Made by a program: the position numbers and the translations under genes | Assembly: GCA_019454125.1 (NCBI GenBank) | Contig: CP075365.1 | Coordinates: forward strand, 2,226,218-2,290,217 | Direction of reading: 5' to 3' | Source: Fimbriimonadaceae bacterium | Lineage (GTDB): Bacteria; Armatimonadota; Fimbriimonadia; Fimbriimonadales; Fimbriimonadaceae | DNA: 64,000 bases | The notes under the pieces: model-generated | Database searches by the model: none | The model's input: only the letters and a program-made list of their open reading frames with translations | What the model was told of the DNA's origin: nothing | Shown: in pieces, positions 7,579-63,473 of the stretch | How the letters are laid out: every line of letters starts with the position of its first letter | How positions within the stretch are numbered: position 1 is the stretch's first letter

Positions 7579-8694
7579 TTAGCCGCCGACCGTGAACTTC
7601 ACGAAGTCGACTTCGTGGCACCAGAGGCTGGCGCCGGCCGGGCCGGTCTGGCGGATGGTGTAGCGCATGGTCACGCGGTTGTTGCCGGCGACGTAGCGGC
7701 TGAACGGAGCGGTGCCCGTCAGCGTGCTCGTGCTGAACGAAGTGTTCTTCACGTTGTCGAGGTCGTTGACCCACGTGTTGTTCGTCGTGTCGAGGAACTG
7801 CATGCGTTGGCGGAAGGCGCCGGTCGTCTGCATGCGCGACTTGACCTCGGCGGTCAGACTGCTCGGGTTGGTCCTCGTCGTCACCGTGAAGACTTCGACG
7901 TTGACCGGGTCCACGGCCTGGTTCGGCACGATGAACTTGCAGACGCGAAGCACGTTGCCATCGTCGGCGGCAAGGCTGCCGACGTTACCGGCGTCGACGC
8001 GGCCAAGCCGGGTGACAAAGCCGGTCGGAGCAAGCACCTCGTTAGTGCTGCCAGCGGTGGCGTTGAAGCTGAGGACGGGACCGTCGTAGTTGAAGTTGGT
8101 GTAGCCCGCGTAGGTCGCGGCGACGTTGGCCGGGCCGCTGACCTCGTCCGGCGTCACGACCAGGCGGACTTGGCTGTTCGAGTTGAGCTGCGAGATCAAG
8201 AGGCTCTTGGCCTGCGGGGTGAGGTTGAAGCTGAAGACGTCGGTTGTGCCGCTCGCGATCTGGCGGAACGAGCCGGGGCCCAGGTAGACGAGGGTCAGCT
8301 GGGTACCCACGCCCTCGGGGGTCACGCCGTCCAGCCAAACATAGGGAGAGGTGCCGGGGTCGATCGAAGTGGTGCTGTCGGTGGCGAGCCAGAACTTGAT
8401 CTCACCGTCGATCGTGAAGGCCGCGTTGGCCTGGGTCAGGAAGACCTGGAAGTCCGTGATGTCGCCCACGTTGAACGGGATGTTGAAGTCAGAAGCCTTG
8501 AAGTCGGCGGCGCCCCAGCTGCGGAACTGAGGGGCGTTGCCAGAACCTTCGATGTTCCAGAAGGCCTTACCGTTCGTGCCGGGGCGGGGACCGGCGGCTT
8601 GGATCGTGCCGTTGTTGAAGGCTTCGGCTTGGTACTGGGCAAGCGAGACCGCGGCGAGGAACACCGCGAAAGACGTGAGGGTGAATTTTTGCAT
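7579..8694 (-). CDS. Exported protein with repeated Armatimonadota-type C-terminal domain
   Basis: 371 residues with an N-terminal signal peptide (MQKFTLTSFAVFLAAVSLAQ) and a good Shine-Dalgarno AGGAGAG just upstream. Residues ~20-220 form a beta-rich region with no motif I recognise. Residues ~227-371 are a separate domain nearly identical in plan to the C-terminus of the protein at 21968 (for example LRVCKFIVPNQ, YTIRQTGPAG and SLWCHEVDFV). More distant copies occur in both sugar dehydrogenases at 60-63 kb. Two conserved Cys (251 and the one in LWCHE) could pair. It is probably secreted or surface-attached; its function is unknown. Confidence 0.75.
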   Translation of the reverse strand: MQKFTLTSFAVFLAAVSLAQYQAEAFNNGTIQAAGPRPGTNGKAFWNIEGSGNAPQFRSWGAADFKASDFNIPFNVGDITDFQVFLTQANAAFTIDGEIKFWLATDSTTSIDPGTSPYVWLDGVTPEGVGTQLTLVYLGPGSFRQIASGTTDVFSFNLTPQAKSLLISQLNSNSQVRLVVTPDEVSGPANVAATYAGYTNFNYDGPVLSFNATAGSTNEVLAPTGFVTRLGRVDAGNVGSLAADDGNVLRVCKFIVPNQAVDPVNVEVFTVTTRTNPSSLTAEVKSRMQTTGAFRQRMQFLDTTNNTWVNDLDNVKNTSFSTSTLTGTAPFSRYVAGNNRVTMRYTIRQTGPAGASLWCHEVDFVKFTVGG

Positions 8695-21967: not shown

Positions 21968-23122
21968 ATGACAAACCGCCTCAAATTCGCATTGTTCGCA
22001 GGGCTTGCAGCCCTCTCTGCCTTCGGCCAGGCTAACCTGTTGGCTAACGGCGACCTCGACGTGACCTATCAGCAGGAGATCCTGCCCGGGTTCTTCCTGC
22101 CGAAGCCGCACATCTGGCAGAACGTCGGCACGCAAAGCATCTCAGGCCCCTACGAGGACGAAATGTCCAGTGAGCCGTGGGCCGGCCCCGCGCCGACCCC
22201 TGAGACCACCAACGGTTTCGACGTCACCAACAACGACCCGAACGGTCTCGACTGGGGCGTCTTCTTCAAGCCCTTCACGGGCAACGTGGCCAACGGCACC
22301 GCCACCGGCCACCTCTTCCAGGACGTGCCCGGCACCGCGGGCACGGGCTACATGCTCACGGGTTGGGCGGGCGCCGAGGCGAACGCGACCATGCGGGACG
22401 CCGTCCTCGCCATCGACTTCCTCGATGCCAACCGAAACGTGATCGTCTCCAACGAGCGGTCTATCCTCGCCGACCTCTTCATTGAGAACGGGGAGCGGTT
22501 CAACTATAAGAAGTACTCGGTCTCCGCGACGGCCCCAGCCGGCACGGCTTTCGTCCGAGCCCGCATCTCCATGCTCGACGCCACCGCCAGCCCCAACGGC
22601 GGAGGCCAGGCCTTCGTCTGCGACGACTTCGACCTCACCGCCACGGGCAGCACCGCGACGATCATTCCGAGCGCCTTCCAGGTCCTCCTTGGCCGGACCG
22701 CAAGCGGCAACCTCGCGAGCCTCGCCAACGATGACAACAACGCCCTGCGCGTCTGCAAGTTCATCGTGCCGAACCAGGTCGTCGACCCGATCAACGTCGA
22801 AGTAAGCGGAGTCTCCACGATCGCGGCCCCGACCGAGTTCTCGCTCACCGCGAAGACCCGCATGGCCACGACCGGCTCGTTCCGCCAGAACCTGGAGCTC
22901 TTCAACTACTCGACCAACAACTGGGACGTCACGGACACCCGATCGGACGCCGTGAACACCACGTTCGCCACCCGCACCCTTGCTGGCACCGGCGTTCTCA
23001 GCCGCTACATCGGCCCGGGCAACGCCGTCAAGATGCGCTATCGCATCCGCCAGACCGGCCCCGCCGGCGTGCCGCTTTGGTGCCACGAGACCGAGTTCGT
23101 CAACTGGACCGTCAAGGGCTGA
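21968..23122 (+). CDS. Exported protein: PEP-CTERM-type N-domain joined to the repeated C-terminal domain
   Basis: 384 residues from ATG 21968 with Shine-Dalgarno AAGGAG; an in-frame ATG at 21917 is upstream of the promoter box. Signal peptide 1-22. Residues 22-224 are about 65% identical, almost gap-free, to the PEP-CTERM protein at 24155 (for example LDVTYQQEILPGFFLPKP). They look like a carbohydrate-binding-type beta sandwich. Residues ~237-384 are not PEP-CTERM but the repeated domain also found in the gene at 7579 (LRVCKFIVPNQ, YRIRQTGPAG). The two paralogues thus differ in their C-terminal sorting or attachment module. Location: secreted. Function unknown. Confidence 0.78.
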   Translation: MTNRLKFALFAGLAALSAFGQANLLANGDLDVTYQQEILPGFFLPKPHIWQNVGTQSISGPYEDEMSSEPWAGPAPTPETTNGFDVTNNDPNGLDWGVFFKPFTGNVANGTATGHLFQDVPGTAGTGYMLTGWAGAEANATMRDAVLAIDFLDANRNVIVSNERSILADLFIENGERFNYKKYSVSATAPAGTAFVRARISMLDATASPNGGGQAFVCDDFDLTATGSTATIIPSAFQVLLGRTASGNLASLANDDNNALRVCKFIVPNQVVDPINVEVSGVSTIAAPTEFSLTAKTRMATTGSFRQNLELFNYSTNNWDVTDTRSDAVNTTFATRTLAGTGVLSRYIGPGNAVKMRYRIRQTGPAGVPLWCHETEFVNWTVKG

Positions 23123-24154: not shown

Positions 24155-24895
24155 ATGAAAATTAACAACAAACTTGCTTGGTTCGGAGGGGTCGTCGCAC
24201 TTTCGGGTATCGCCCAGGCCAACCTCCTTTACAACGGCAACCTCGACCGCCGCTATCAGCAGGAGATCGTTCCTGGCTTCTTCCTTCCGAAGCCGGACGG
24301 TTGGGTCAACGAAGGCACGCGCACCGTCACGGGAGCGTTCGAGGACGAGTCCTCTAGCGAGCCGTGGGCCGGCCCCGCGCCGACTCCGGAAACCACCGAC
24401 GGATTCGACGTCACGAACAACGTGGCGGACGGCGGCGACTGGGGCCTCTTCTTCAAGCCCTTCACCGGTAACACGGCCAACGGCGCCGTCACCGGCCACC
24501 TGTACCAGGACGTCGCGGCCGCGGCCGGTTCCGTCTACACCCTTAAGGGTTGGGCCGGCGCTGAAGCCAACGCCACCATGGAAGACGCCGTTCTCGCGCT
24601 CGACTTCCTCGATGCCAACAAGAACGTTCTCTCCAGCAGCGTCTACTCGATGCTCGCCGAGCTGAAGGTCGTCAACGGCTTTGCCTTCAACTATAAGGAG
24701 TACAGCGTCAGCGGCACCGCCCCGACGGACACCGCGTTCGTCCGCGCCCGCGTCTCGATGATCAACGGCGTTAATGCTTCGGGTGGCCAGGCGTTCGTCG
24801 TCGACGACTTCGACCTGGAAGTCGTGCCCGAGCCGGCCACCATGGTCGCCATGGGCGCCGGCCTGCTCGCCCTCGCGCGACGCCGCCGCAAGTAA
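24155..24895 (+). CDS. PEP-CTERM sorting-domain protein
   Basis: 246 residues. Signal peptide 1-22, then a single ~200-residue beta-sandwich domain paralogous to residues 22-224 of the protein at 21968. The C-terminus is a classic PEP-CTERM signal: VVPEPATM, a hydrophobic helix (VAMGAGLLALA) and the basic tail RRRRK. Such proteins are processed by an exosortase and exported to the surface or the extracellular matrix; no exosortase gene is in the window. Shine-Dalgarno AAGGAG. It is the last gene before a hairpin terminator. Confidence 0.93.
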   Translation: MKINNKLAWFGGVVALSGIAQANLLYNGNLDRRYQQEIVPGFFLPKPDGWVNEGTRTVTGAFEDESSSEPWAGPAPTPETTDGFDVTNNVADGGDWGLFFKPFTGNTANGAVTGHLYQDVAAAAGSVYTLKGWAGAEANATMEDAVLALDFLDANKNVLSSSVYSMLAELKVVNGFAFNYKEYSVSGTAPTDTAFVRARVSMINGVNASGGQAFVVDDFDLEVVPEPATMVAMGAGLLALARRRRK

Positions 24896-43381: not shown

Positions 43382-44158
43382 TCAGGAACCTTTCCGAGTG
43401 CCCCTGCGGCGCACCAGGGCAAGGAGGCCTCCCGCAAGCAAGAAGCTGCCCGGTTCCGGCACCACGCAGATCTGGTTGAAGTAAGCGTCGTGGGCAGGGC
43501 CGCTCCCCGCGTTCACGTTTACGAACTCGAACGAGGTGAACGAGCTGATGCCGTTGGCAAGGATCCCGTTGGTCGTGAAGAAGGCGTTGTCCACCAGCCT
43601 GGTCACGCCCACGAGGTAGCCGCCCCCGCCGGTGAGCTTCAGGTCGACGTGGAGCCCACCGTCGGTGAACCCGAGGCCGGTCGAGCTGACCCCTCCGGCG
43701 TCGCTGTACCAGTAGTCGCTGCCACCACCGGTGAAGCCGATCCTCCAAGCTTCGGTCGAACCGTTGAAGAACGCGACCGAGACGCTCGAACCGTTGTCGA
43801 TGAAGCCCGTGTCCAGATCGAACGACACCGTATCGCCCGTGACGACCGGGAGGATGAACGCGCGCTCCGCCTTGGCCACGTTGCCGCTGTTCGCGTACAT
43901 CCCCCAGGCATGGCCGAAGATGTCGATGCCAGGCCCGCCGTTGGCACCGTTCCCGTTCGAGGAGGCGCGGAAGTGGCCGCCCTTATTGGGGTCGTTGATC
44001 GTGTTCGTCAAGACCCAGGGGCCAAACCCGAACCCACCGTTCGTCCCGTTCGTCCATCCGCCCCCGTACGCACCAGAGGTCGCATTGTCACACGGGAACT
44101 GCTGCGCGAAGGCCAAGACCGGCGTCACGCAGGCGAGAAGCGTCAGAGTTCTTAACAT
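43382..44158 (-). CDS. PEP-CTERM sorting-domain protein
   Basis: 258 residues from ATG 44158; the in-frame extension upstream lies in the promoter. Signal peptide MLRTLTLLACVTPVLAFAQQ. Central part is Gly/Asn/Ser-rich beta structure with GIDIFGHAWGMY, consistent with a secreted carbohydrate-related sandwich. C-terminus VVPEPGSFLLAGGLLALVRR is a clear PEP-CTERM signal, with a basic end. Location: exported, then exosortase-processed. A TATACT box lies 10 nt before the start. Confidence 0.92.
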   Translation of the reverse strand: MLRTLTLLACVTPVLAFAQQFPCDNATSGAYGGGWTNGTNGGFGFGPWVLTNTINDPNKGGHFRASSNGNGANGGPGIDIFGHAWGMYANSGNVAKAERAFILPVVTGDTVSFDLDTGFIDNGSSVSVAFFNGSTEAWRIGFTGGGSDYWYSDAGGVSSTGLGFTDGGLHVDLKLTGGGGYLVGVTRLVDNAFFTTNGILANGISSFTSFEFVNVNAGSGPAHDAYFNQICVVPEPGSFLLAGGLLALVRRRGTRKGS

Positions 44159-44168
44159 TGCCCCAAGC

Positions 44169-44174
44169 AGTATA
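44169..44174 (-). promoter_or_regulatory. -10 box of the PEP-CTERM gene
   Basis: TATACT on the minus strand, 10 nt before ATG 44158. The intergenic region is AT-rich. Confidence 0.5.
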
Positions 44175-44295
44175 GCAAACTTATATATGGATTGTACATT
44201 TTTTTTACACACCCTCCTGCCTGAGCGCCCCTCGAGTCGAAAGGATTCCTCAAAAACACCCTGCCGAAGCGTCGCTATTCACCCTCGAACTCTCA

Positions 44296-59068: not shown

Positions 59069-60145
59069 ATGAAGTTCTATTTCCACCCCCGAATGACCAG
59101 GTACGACTTCGGCCCGAACCACCCTCTTCGGCCGGAGCGCCTGGCGCGGGCCATCGCCCTGCTGGAAGCGGTCGCGCCCGACCTCGACGTCCTCGACCCT
59201 GGCCCAGGGTCGCGCGACGAGCCGCTCTTGGTCCACGCGCCGGATTACGTCGCGTTTCTGGAGGCCCATCAGGCGATCGCGCCAGACCCTCCCGAGGCGG
59301 CCGCTTTCGGGATCCGGCCCGGGGATAACCCGTGGTTCCCGGCAATGTACACGGCTTCGCTGGCCTACCTGTCCGGATCGGTGCGCGCGGCCGAAGCGGT
59401 GAGGGACGGCGAGAGCCTGGCCTTCAATCTTGGCGGGGGCCTCCACCATGCCCAGCTACGGCTGGCGAGCGGCTTCTGCGTGTTCAACGACTGCTCCGCC
59501 GCCGTCGCAATTCTGAGGGAGCGCTTCGCGCGGGTCGCCTATATCGACATCGACCTGCACCATGGCGACGGCGTCCAGTGGCACTATTACGAAGACCCAA
59601 GCGTTCTGACCTACAGCGTCCACCAGACCGGCCGCACGCTCTATCCCGGCACCGGGTTCGTCCACGAGGTGGGCGCGGGCCACACCAAAATCAACGTTCC
59701 GCTCGAAGGCGGCACTTCCGGGGACACCTGGCTTTGGGCGGTCGAAGAGACCTTGCCGCGCGCCATCGAGCGCTTCCAACCGGAGGCGGTCGTGCTGCAA
59801 ATGGGGACCGACGCCCACTATCTCGACCCGCTCGGCAACCTTCGTGCAACGGCGAAGGACTGGCTGGCCGCGGTGAGCCTGGTGCGCGGTTTTGGGCTCC
59901 CCTTGGTCGCCCTGGGGGGCGGCGGCTATGACATCACCGTCGTTCCCCGCCTGTGGGCGGCGGCGACCCTCACCCTCCTGCGACGCGAAGTCCCGGAGTT
60001 CGTCCCCGCGGAGATCCCGCCGGAATGGGGCCTCTTCACCTTTCTTGACACAAACCCGCCCAGCGAACGCTGGGCGGGCAGACCCGAGGCCGAAGAGACG
60101 GTTCGGGCAGTTCGCGAGAACCTCGATAGGATCAGCGCGCCGTGA
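59069..60145 (+). CDS. Histone deacetylase-family enzyme (AcuC-like)
   Basis: 358 residues from ATG 59069; the longer in-frame extension is antisense to ubiA. HDAC-fold motifs: NHPLRPERLARAIALLEAVA, GGLHHAQ, the zinc site YIDIDLHHGDGVQWHYY and QMGTDAHY, and the closing LVALGGGGYDITVVPRLWA. Close to AcuC, which deacetylates acetyl-CoA synthetase. It overlaps the convergent sugar dehydrogenase gene by 14 nt. Confidence 0.92.
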   Translation: MKFYFHPRMTRYDFGPNHPLRPERLARAIALLEAVAPDLDVLDPGPGSRDEPLLVHAPDYVAFLEAHQAIAPDPPEAAAFGIRPGDNPWFPAMYTASLAYLSGSVRAAEAVRDGESLAFNLGGGLHHAQLRLASGFCVFNDCSAAVAILRERFARVAYIDIDLHHGDGVQWHYYEDPSVLTYSVHQTGRTLYPGTGFVHEVGAGHTKINVPLEGGTSGDTWLWAVEETLPRAIERFQPEAVVLQMGTDAHYLDPLGNLRATAKDWLAAVSLVRGFGLPLVALGGGGYDITVVPRLWAAATLTLLRREVPEFVPAEIPPEWGLFTFLDTNPPSERWAGRPEAEETVRAVRENLDRISAP

Positions 60146-61766
60146 TCACGACCTGGTCCCAGTAGACGAACGCAGAAGTCGCGATCGCACCCTTGACCTC
60201 CATCTGCGCCCGGACCTCGACGCGACCGTCAGAGCCGCGGACGTACGTCCCTGCGGGCAAGCCGGTGACGCGGAACCGGCGCGACACTCCGTCCATGTTA
60301 AAGGCCGAGACCTGGACGAACTCACCGTCGCTCCATCGCTTCAGCATCACACGCAGGGTGGCTTTCGCGTCAATGCCATACCGACCGACCAGGTCGACGT
60401 CCAGCGCGGTGGGGTTCGCCCGGTTCGTGTTGCCGACGAAGTCAATGATCGAGCGGCGAGCTGCGAGGTTCGGCCGCAAGACCAGCTCGACGTTATCGCG
60501 CAGCAGCACGTGGCGGAGAGACCCGCGAATAATCGTGCCCTCACGGTTGACCAGGCCCGAAAGCCACGTCGAATTGGGGCGGTTCAGCTTCAAGACGCGG
60601 CCGCCGCTGTAGTCGCAAAGGTAGAGCTCCCCGTCGTAGCCCATGTCGATCGAGGAGATACTCCCGAGGCCGCCGATCCCCGCGAAGTCCGCCGTGTGCT
60701 CGCGCAGGCCCCGGCCCACGTACCGCTGCAGCGTCTGGTCATAGGTGATCACCATCGACCAGAGCTTCCCGGCGGCAAAGTCGCCGAAGAAGTAGCGGCC
60801 GAAGTATTCTGGCCCGAGCTGCAAACCCCGGTAAACGTAGCCGCCGACCACGGACTGGCCCGTCGCGTGCCCATAAACGTAGGTCGGCGACTGGAGCGGC
60901 TCATAGGCCGGGGAACCACTCTTGAACGTGGCAAAACCCTCCCGGAGCGGCCAACCATAGTTCGCACCGCCCTTCCGGTACGGCTCGTAATTGATCTCCT
61001 CGTAGCGGTCCTCCCCGACGTCCCCGAAGATCATCGCCCCGTTTCCAAAGAGGCGCGTGTCGTCGAAGCTGAATTTCCACGGGTTCCTTGTGCCGAACGA
61101 CCAGATCTCACCCAGCGCGGAAATCGGCTGGCCGTTCACGAACGGGTTGTCCGGTGGGATCTTGTAGTTCCTTGCCGGGTCGGTCGGAAAGTCGTCGCCG
61201 GTCGGATCGATGCGGATGATCTTGCCGAGCAAGCTCTGGGGGCTTTGTGCGACGTTGATCAGCGGGTTTGCCCCGTCGCCCATCGCGACGTAGAGCTTGC
61301 CGTCCGCATTGAAGTGCATGGTGCCTCCGTTGTGGTTGCCCGTGCTCCTCGACGTGCGGAGGATGTTGAACCGGCTGTTCGGGTCGGCCACGTACTGGTC
61401 GCCCACACTGCGGCTATAGCGGGCGATCTGCATGCCCTCGCTCTTATCCCGGAAATTCACGTAGAAATACCGGCTCGTCGCATAGTCGGGCGGGAAGGCC
61501 AAGCCGAGCAGGCCGTTCTCTCCCGAGAAGGACACGATAGAGCTGATGTTCAAAAACGGGGTCGGGCGCAGGACGCCGTTCACGACGACGCGGACGACTC
61601 CGTTCTGTTCGACCAAGAACTGGATTTGGGCGTCGCTCGGGTGCCGGACGAGGGCGACCGGGCTTTGCCGCCCGGTGAGGAGGGTGGTGGCGCCGAGTGT
61701 CTGGGCATGGCTACTCGACCACACTGCAGCCAAGAGTGCGCCAGCGACTAACGGCAACGTTCGCAT
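60132..61766 (-). CDS. PQQ-type sugar dehydrogenase (GSDH fold) with repeated C-terminal domain
   Basis: 544 residues with a signal peptide (1-21). Beta-propeller residues 30-395 match glucose/sorbosone dehydrogenases: GLLGLAFPPDY, TGNHNGGTMHFNADGKLYVA with the base His145, DNPFVNG and FGTRNPWKFSFD with Arg227. Residues ~401-544 are an added beta domain related in plan to those at 7579 and 21968. It oxidises an aldose or alcohol in the periplasm with PQQ. A TAGAAT box lies 9 nt before the start. A paralogue follows on the same strand. Confidence 0.9.
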   Translation of the reverse strand: MRTLPLVAGALLAAVWSSSHAQTLGATTLLTGRQSPVALVRHPSDAQIQFLVEQNGVVRVVVNGVLRPTPFLNISSIVSFSGENGLLGLAFPPDYATSRYFYVNFRDKSEGMQIARYSRSVGDQYVADPNSRFNILRTSRSTGNHNGGTMHFNADGKLYVAMGDGANPLINVAQSPQSLLGKIIRIDPTGDDFPTDPARNYKIPPDNPFVNGQPISALGEIWSFGTRNPWKFSFDDTRLFGNGAMIFGDVGEDRYEEINYEPYRKGGANYGWPLREGFATFKSGSPAYEPLQSPTYVYGHATGQSVVGGYVYRGLQLGPEYFGRYFFGDFAAGKLWSMVITYDQTLQRYVGRGLREHTADFAGIGGLGSISSIDMGYDGELYLCDYSGGRVLKLNRPNSTWLSGLVNREGTIIRGSLRHVLLRDNVELVLRPNLAARRSIIDFVGNTNRANPTALDVDLVGRYGIDAKATLRVMLKRWSDGEFVQVSAFNMDGVSRRFRVTGLPAGTYVRGSDGRVEVRAQMEVKGAIATSAFVYWDQVVITAR

Positions 61767-61838: not shown

Positions 61839-63473
61839 TCACTGGACCCGGACTTCGATCCGGTCGTAAAGGTTCGAATAGAAGGCCCGGGTCAAGATGC
61901 CGCTATAGCTCGTGGCCACCTGGACCTCGATGCGGCCATCGCTGGACCGCACGTAGTCTGCCGCGCTGCCAGTTCCGGTCAGCGGAGTCGGCGTCCCCGT
62001 AATGTTGCCAGTCGCCACCGCGTCGAACTGGCCGGTCTGCCAGTTACGAAGGCTGACCACGGTCCCCACCGGGATCGACTGGTTGGCGCGGCCCAAGAAC
62101 TCGACCGTCACCGTGTTCCGGTTCGCCACGTTCGTTTTGAAGCCGGCCGTCATCCGGGTGACCTTGGTGTTGCGGGCCCCGGGGGCGAACGGCACGATCT
62201 CCAGTTCTTTGCCGTCCGCGATCACGAGGGAGCGCAGCTGGCCGGAAAGGAACACGCCCTCTTGGCGGCTCGCATCGGTCAAGTGGGTCACGTTCTGTCG
62301 CCCGAGCTTATAGACGGTGCCACCGAGGGCCACTGTGTACAGCTCGCCGTTCTCGTCCGGGTTGATGGACGAGATGTTCCCGATGCTGCCGACTTCGCTG
62401 CTGTGGTTGCGGTTGTCGGTGGCGGTGGCCTCGCCCGTGACCGGGTCGATCACGAGCCTAAGCGAGAAGAGCCGCCCCGCGACGTAGTCCGCATAAACGT
62501 AGCGGCCGAAGAAATCCGGGCCCAGCTCCAGGCCTCGATAAACGTAGCCGCCTGTGATGGACTGGCCGACCGAGCGGTTGTAGGCGAAGATCGGCTTGGT
62601 GTCCGGGCCATAGGCGAGGGCTCCCCCGTTGATCATCTGAGACCCTTCCCAGACGCGCCAACCGTAGTTGCGGCCCCCTTGGCCGGCGGGCTCGTAGTCG
62701 ATCTCCTCCCATGCGCTCTGGCCGACGTCGCCGACGACCATGGCACCCGTTCCGAGCAGGTTCGGATCGTCAAAGCTGAACTTCCACGGGTTGCGGTAAC
62801 CGAAAGCCCAGATCTCGTCCAGGGCCGCGATCGGGTCGTTATCGACGAAAGGGTTGTCCGGCGGGATCGCATAGTTCCGCTCGGGGTCGGCCGGAAAATC
62901 GTCGCCCGAGACGTCCAGGCGCAGCATCTTGCCCAGCAACTCGTTCGGGTTCTGGGCGCGGTTGCCCGGGTCGTTCGCGCTGCCACCGTCACCGGTCGGC
63001 ACGTACAGATAGCCGTCCGGGCCGAACTGGATGGTCCCAGCGTTGTGGTTCGTGAACGGGCGCTGCGTCCGCAGAACCTTGACCTGGCTGGCCGGGTCGG
63101 CCTCGAGCCGGGTGCCCGCCTTCAGCTGGAAGCGGCTCAGCTGCATGTAGACGGGGCTCGTGTTCGAGGTGTAGTTGACGTAGAACGTGCCGCTGGTGGC
63201 GTAATCGGGCGGGAAGGCGAGGCCGAGCAGGCCGCGCTCACTGCCGACAAGGACGCTCAAGGTGAGGAACGGGGTGGGCAACCGGACTCCGTCTTGCACG
63301 ACGAAGATCGTGCCTCCCTGCTGGATCACGTACTGCAGGCTCGGATCGACGGGGTCCTGAATGATCCCCACCGAGCTGCTAAAGCCGCTGACATACGGCG
63401 TGGCCGTCAGGTTCTGGGCGAGCGAAGGCACCGTGGCGACGGCGAAAATGGCTAAGGCAAGCAAACGTTTCAT
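61839..63473 (-). CDS. PQQ-type sugar dehydrogenase paralogue with repeated C-terminal domain
   Basis: 544 residues, the same length as its neighbour, roughly half identical in the propeller. Signal peptide MKRLLALAIFAVATVPSLAQ. Motifs: TNHNAGTIQFGPDGYLYVPT, GDGGSANDPGNRAQNPNELL, IWAFGYRNPWKFSFDDPNLL and GGYVYRGLELGPDFFGRY. The C-terminal domain is residues ~398-544. AGGAGAG lies 5-11 nt before the start, and a TATAGA box further upstream. It is transcribed before its paralogue; the 73-bp gap holds the latter's own -10 box. Confidence 0.9.
   Translation of the reverse strand: MKRLLALAIFAVATVPSLAQNLTATPYVSGFSSSVGIIQDPVDPSLQYVIQQGGTIFVVQDGVRLPTPFLTLSVLVGSERGLLGLAFPPDYATSGTFYVNYTSNTSPVYMQLSRFQLKAGTRLEADPASQVKVLRTQRPFTNHNAGTIQFGPDGYLYVPTGDGGSANDPGNRAQNPNELLGKMLRLDVSGDDFPADPERNYAIPPDNPFVDNDPIAALDEIWAFGYRNPWKFSFDDPNLLGTGAMVVGDVGQSAWEEIDYEPAGQGGRNYGWRVWEGSQMINGGALAYGPDTKPIFAYNRSVGQSITGGYVYRGLELGPDFFGRYVYADYVAGRLFSLRLVIDPVTGEATATDNRNHSSEVGSIGNISSINPDENGELYTVALGGTVYKLGRQNVTHLTDASRQEGVFLSGQLRSLVIADGKELEIVPFAPGARNTKVTRMTAGFKTNVANRNTVTVEFLGRANQSIPVGTVVSLRNWQTGQFDAVATGNITGTPTPLTGTGSAADYVRSSDGRIEVQVATSYSGILTRAFYSNLYDRIEVRVQ

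Follow-up and report, generated by a model that had tools for sequence, protein, structure and literature searches.

The ends of four exported proteins in the window, the stretch of 64,000 nucleotides analyzed here from a 2.65-Mb Armatimonadota (Fimbriimonadaceae-like) chromosome, are copies of one domain (Table 1). We consider it likely that this C-terminal domain is an interchangeable attachment (anchor/sorting) module that keeps exported proteins at the cell surface or in the matrix. The strongest clue to its function, and the main evidence for it, is module exchange. A PEP-CTERM or a docking module occupies the same place on close relatives of domain-bearing proteins, and the domain thus probably serves to attach secreted proteins to the surface or slime.

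The four ORFs (7579-8694, 21968-23122, 60132-61766 and 61839-63473) were confirmed, and a domain of about 150 aa is common to the ends of all four proteins (P0001-P0004). The preliminary description of this DNA had seen one shared plan in these C-termini, with the first two copies close and the two dehydrogenase copies remote but in the same order, and all of this was borne out. The close pair (7579-8694 and 21968-23122) is 50% identical over the C-terminal 161 aa, and the dehydrogenase pair (60132-61766 and 61839-63473) is 34% identical over 146 aa (E 2e-18). Between the pairs, single-sequence phmmer matches are weak (E about 1e-3 to 0.3 in the set of four sequences), so profiles that excluded the tested sequences were used. 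A profile of 18 genome copies, with the window copies left out, matches P0001 at 4e-31, P0002 at 2e-38, P0003 at 3.5e-9 and P0004 at 3.5e-15. Reversed-sequence controls gave E >= 36 with each of three profiles. A profile of 16 close copies alone matches P0004 at 2e-4 and P0003 only at 0.24, which is not reliable; the link between close and remote copies thus rests on intermediate copies.

Table 1. Copies of the C-terminal domain in the window, the proteins that carry them, and the PEP-CTERM paralogue.
Feature	Position	Strand	Details
Exported protein, type-I-like signal peptide + unassigned N-domain + C-terminal domain	7579..8694	-	
C-terminal domain, copy 1	7582..8049	-	Residues 216-371 of the 371-aa protein 7579-8694; profile + model mdf0699ca3b80
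Exported protein ending in the C-terminal domain; N-domain paralogous to PEP-CTERM protein 24155-24895	21968..23122	+	
C-terminal domain, copy 2	22646..23119	+	Residues 227-384 of the 384-aa protein 21968-23122; profile
Paralogue of 21968-23122, PEP-CTERM (24824-24889) in place of the domain	24155..24895	+	67% over 229 aa
C-terminal domain, copy 3	60135..60572	-	About residues 399-544 of GSDH protein 60132-61766; profile + model mc2346635a49e
Glucose/sorbosone dehydrogenase (GSDH, PF07995) N-domain of the copy 3 protein	60615..61661	-	Pfam
C-terminal domain, copy 4	61842..62285	-	About residues 397-544 of GSDH protein 61839-63473; profile
Glucose/sorbosone dehydrogenase (GSDH, PF07995) N-domain of the copy 4 protein	62421..63329	-	Pfam

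The four copies described at the outset fall far short of the true number. A profile of four rows matched the 2.65-Mb genome at 38 places. The 36 strong ones then served as the rows of a second profile, which at E <= 0.01 located 44 copies, including one interrupted by an in-frame TAG. This interrupted copy (L042, C1:276787-277242) adjoins an intact copy at 278244-278690. When all candidates were scored in 16 genomes (E <= 0.001), the genomes of the same family held 43 (the genome of the window), 54, 44, 36, 65, 37, 31, 7, 5, 2, 0, 0 and 4 copies, and those of a sister family 19, 19 and 16. A survey of the phylum that scored at most 12 candidates per genome found matches at E <= 0.001 in 104 of 291 genomes. 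Limitation to one phylum had been named as a supporting outcome, and this stands for the close sub-type only, for which 16/16 confirmed loci in named genome records belong to Armatimonadota (e.g., records titled Fimbriimonadaceae or Chthonomonadaceae bacterium). A tblastn search of plasmids with the domain gave no match.

The domain is last in 44/44 copies of its own genome and in 61/61 distinct copies from other genomes, the latter a sample of retrieved loci out of several hundred matches (one copy cut by the locus end, L130, was not counted). It usually ends 0-5 residues before the stop. In three copies of the home genome the match breaks off 17-29 residues too soon, with the end of the model not yet reached, and the remainder of the domain fills the gap. 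No tandem or internal copy, and no ORF with two copies, occurs among these 105. Signal peptides are present in 36/36 strong copies of the home genome, 35 by a hydropathy rule and one (D35) once the correct start was chosen, and are clear by eye in five of the eight weaker ones. The N-domains named by Pfam and NCBIfam include the GSDHs of the window, subtilases, a GDSL hydrolase, SMP-30/NHL, PQQ propellers, PKD, and BNR or sortilin-like propellers; many others are without a name. Two choice-of-anchor B proteins of the genome (TIGR04312, 358 and 297 bits) have matches that end just before the C-terminal domain. The claim that the domain always sits last, in exported proteins with unrelated N-domains, is thus upheld. 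D35 itself is a stand-alone copy, a 171-aa protein of signal peptide and domain only (L043:4158-4616; C1:376160-376621 in the genome). A second stand-alone copy, with only 24% identity in the matched part, is in L101.

Structure prediction had been proposed as a check on the kinship of the two pairs, and a close and a remote copy, modeled separately with AlphaFold2, have the same fold. The close copy (7582-8079, 36 rows) reached pLDDT 95.8 and pTM 0.87, and the remote GSDH copy (60135-60617, 20 rows that exclude the close group) pLDDT 92.3 and pTM 0.85. The models have an identical strand order and the same best PDB matches, and the predicted fold is a CBM-like beta-jelly roll. In the lists of both, a domain of the phi812 baseplate comes first (Z 14.2 and 14.5), followed by CBM4-2, CBM22, CBM16, CBM29 and other galactose-binding-like sandwiches (Z about 9.5-11.5, ~117-135 residues). 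The CBM/galactose-binding fold is widespread and by itself shows no function. In sequence searches of the PDB, P0001 alone had no match at E <= 10, and the best match of the four-row profile (E 0.023) was taken as chance.

The preliminary description could not match the domain to a named family, and had counted a profile hit on a known domain as refuting evidence. Weak matches to one family touch on that condition and call for qualification. Pfam PF14741 (GH114_assoc) matches P0001 at 22.1-23.0 bits against a cut-off of 22 (best E 9.4e-5), and it matches 8/36 copies at E <= 1. P0001 is the only copy known to pass, and the others with known scores fall below the cut-off. Eight places in the genome match PF14741. 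The 36 copies match 11 Pfam families in all, and none besides PF14741 is matched by more than one copy. From its sequence similarity, PF14741 is a probable distant relative, and the borderline scores are not proof of membership. By its Pfam name PF14741 is N-terminal, whereas the domain is last in every copy of its own genome, and Pfam scans of 34 full-length proteins found no GH114 partner.

The CBM-like fold and the borderline relation to the GH114-associated PF14741 would both suit a conventional carbohydrate-binding module with a nutritional role, one that targets enzymes to polysaccharides in the environment. We think this improbable. The fold is predicted to be like that of CBM4/16/22/29-like modules, but the domain is strictly terminal and never repeated, whereas typical CBMs can be tandem or internal, and 0/36 copies match a CBM Pfam family. 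N-domain scans with Pfam and NCBIfam yielded neither a glycoside hydrolase nor a polysaccharide lyase; the N-domains that received a name belong to propellers, subtilases, GDSL hydrolases and choice-of-anchor proteins. Exchange with PEP-CTERM would also be hard to explain for a nutritional module.

This exchange can be seen within the window. The protein at 24155-24895 is a paralogue of the domain-bearing protein at 21968-23122, with 73% DNA identity over 658 columns. After a common ...DDFDL, it ends in VPEPATM...RRRRK, scored as PEP-CTERM at 31 bits. A further PEP-CTERM protein of the genome (L061) is 38% and 33% identical to the domain-bearing proteins D09 and D11. These two are the only ones with a domain-bearing relative among 17 PEP-CTERM proteins of the genome, the other 15 being those in retrieved stretches. 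PEP-CTERM with its exosortase is likewise C-terminal, has many substrates per genome, and occupies the position of the domain on paralogous N-domains within one genome. It is, however, a motif of 24 positions with a hydrophobic stretch and a basic end, whereas the domain is a fold of 150 aa with neither, and PF07589 (PEP-CTERM) is absent from the families matched by the 36 domain copies. The genome encodes a single exosortase, and its PEP-CTERM matches number 43 at E <= 10. A possible second PEP-CTERM ORF in the window (43382-44278, minus strand) overlaps an ORF on the opposite strand, and its status as a gene is uncertain. The exosortase was rejected as a discriminating partner of the domain, being present in 99/113 genomes of the order. 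An inverse relation between PEP-CTERM and domain numbers was also rejected (rho 0.16, n=16). One genome (G137) has 75 PEP-CTERM matches (E <= 10) and neither the domain nor dockerins, and another of 1.5 Mb (G132) is practically without all three.

The second exchange is with dockerin-like modules. The order has 50 choice-of-anchor B matches, and each was examined: 45 end in the domain (two of them cut inside it by a contig or locus end), three in dockerin-like repeats and one, in G121, in PEP-CTERM. The 50th (L188) seems by eye to have a divergent domain copy, and a cut duplicate (L150) was not counted. In a tree of the N-domains, the starred branches force a minimum of two switches between domain and dockerin-like ends. 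In a GSDH subfamily of 28 proteins, hand-picked from a lower score band, 13 end in the domain (groups f1 and f2) and 15 in dockerin-like repeats (f3 and f4). A tree of GSDH proteins does not include the 30 top-scoring loci (L189-L218), and none of those among them that were listed matches the domain. The window GSDHs form a separate group of this tree together with one G129 protein that has neither end. Loci of f3 and f4 (L219-L224, L233-L236, L238 and others) show a recurring pair of a small C-terminal beta-domain and dockerin-like repeats. Scanned singly, 2/8 of the dockerin-like tails reach the Pfam cut-off, and the name dockerin-like therefore rests also on a repeated GDxNxDxxI-like pattern. 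Type I dockerins are C-terminal attachment modules that sister genomes have on the protein families which here carry the domain, although their fold and sequence are unrelated to those of the domain. Dockerins bind cohesin. On homologous N-domains the domain thus takes the place of known anchor or sorting modules, which is one mark of the choice-of-anchor functional class.

Copy numbers of the two modules are opposed. Among 32 genomes, 12/13 with at least 12 domain copies have 0-2 dockerins, and 11/12 with at least 10 dockerins have 0-2 domain copies (Spearman -0.56, Fisher p 0.008, with kinship ignored and with the domain numbers of 16 of the genomes taken from the survey that scored at most 12 candidates each). 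One genome (G145) has both, with at least 12 domain copies and 87 dockerins, the most in any genome. That close relatives have PEP-CTERM or dockerin-like modules instead of the domain also bears on whether the domain is a folding or protease-resistance cap with no targeting role. Its core is compact and conserved, and C47 and C154 are invariant in the close sub-type, where they could form a disulfide. D158 is conserved as well; a role for it as a ligand of structural calcium was considered and dropped. A cap would nevertheless leave the replacements unexplained, and we regard it as very improbable.

The main alternative is that the domain is a dedicated secretion signal, recognized by an outer-membrane machinery of its own and maybe removed or linked after passage, in the manner of type IX C-terminal domains (CTDs). 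T9SS CTDs (types A and B) are obligate C-terminal beta-sandwiches on scattered exported proteins, and the domain resembles them in this. Its strict terminal position in 105/105 copies, dozens of scattered substrates and the lack of another obvious exit route would be consistent with such a signal. So would a protein of about 900 aa, like an outer-membrane barrel and with a weak SprA-like segment, in most genomes. This type of protein also occurs, however, in two genomes without the domain (G112 and G137). SprA/Sov was over the cut-off in 0/14 genomes, in a search run without a T9SS-bearing positive control, and the partial matches span about 110 positions or fewer. T9SS CTD families match 0/36 copies, and the domain fold differs from the small Ig-like fold of these CTDs. 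The stand-alone copies, moreover, speak against a pure tag. A dedicated secretion signal thus appears unlikely to us. Two large exported proteins with short SprA-like segments are encoded at L139:1678-4425 (minus strand, ~900 aa) and L140:4-3495 (minus strand, ~1160 aa). The L139 protein resembles an outer-membrane barrel, with such a match in 13/14 genomes, including two without the domain.

The preferred reading remains that of an attachment module. An ordinary N-terminal signal peptide would direct each protein into the Sec pathway. Once the protein is exported, its very C-terminus, the folded CBM-like beta-sandwich, would fix it to a component of the cell surface or extracellular matrix, probably non-covalently. 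One paper describes PEP-CTERM as exopolysaccharide-associated sorting (PMC1569441). Given the CBM-like fold and the exchange with exopolysaccharide-linked PEP-CTERM, the partner is most likely a surface polysaccharide. A CBM-like domain that replaces PEP-CTERM would most simply be a direct binder of surface or matrix polysaccharide. The strict terminal position, the signal peptides, the multiplicity, the unrelated N-domains and the opposed copy numbers of domain and dockerins were also counted in favor of the anchor. We counted against it the stand-alone copies without cargo (D35 and L101), since a mere tag would have no use for such copies, and the commonness of the CBM/galactose-binding fold. 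The genome with both modules, the absence of an anticorrelation with PEP-CTERM and the few dockerin-like tails over the Pfam cut-off were counted likewise. The preliminary description had offered a sorting, attachment or matrix-binding role, and the exchange with PEP-CTERM and dockerin-like modules gives strong indirect support, short of proof, to sorting or attachment. A more specific proposal, which we hold as tentative and on balance doubtful, is that the domain belongs to an undescribed sorting system of Fimbriimonadia. The CBM-like domain would be the address label, with its own unrecognized receptor or translocon, working beside PEP-CTERM/exosortase in one cell and replacing dockerin attachment in sister lineages.

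Interchangeable C-terminal anchors are already known as a kind. In the open-licence literature we found no folded CBM-like domain described as a terminal-only anchor with 30-65 copies in each of the richest genomes, no paper on sorting domains of this kind, and nothing on GH114_assoc or on PEP-CTERM in Fimbriimonas. Judged by title, the same literature holds no choice-of-anchor paper on Armatimonadota, and none of the papers on dockerins and Armatimonadetes concerns this topic. T2SS genes are listed in the 2014 Fimbriimonas genome paper (PMC4072686). How proteins are placed on the surface of Armatimonadota is hardly described, and a module that replaces PEP-CTERM and dockerins on the same proteins provides a handle on it. 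The domain predicts which proteins would be co-located, about 30-65 of them in each of the richest genomes, and the genes at 21968-23122 and 24155-24895, about 1 kb apart, form a pair that differs mainly in the C-terminal module.
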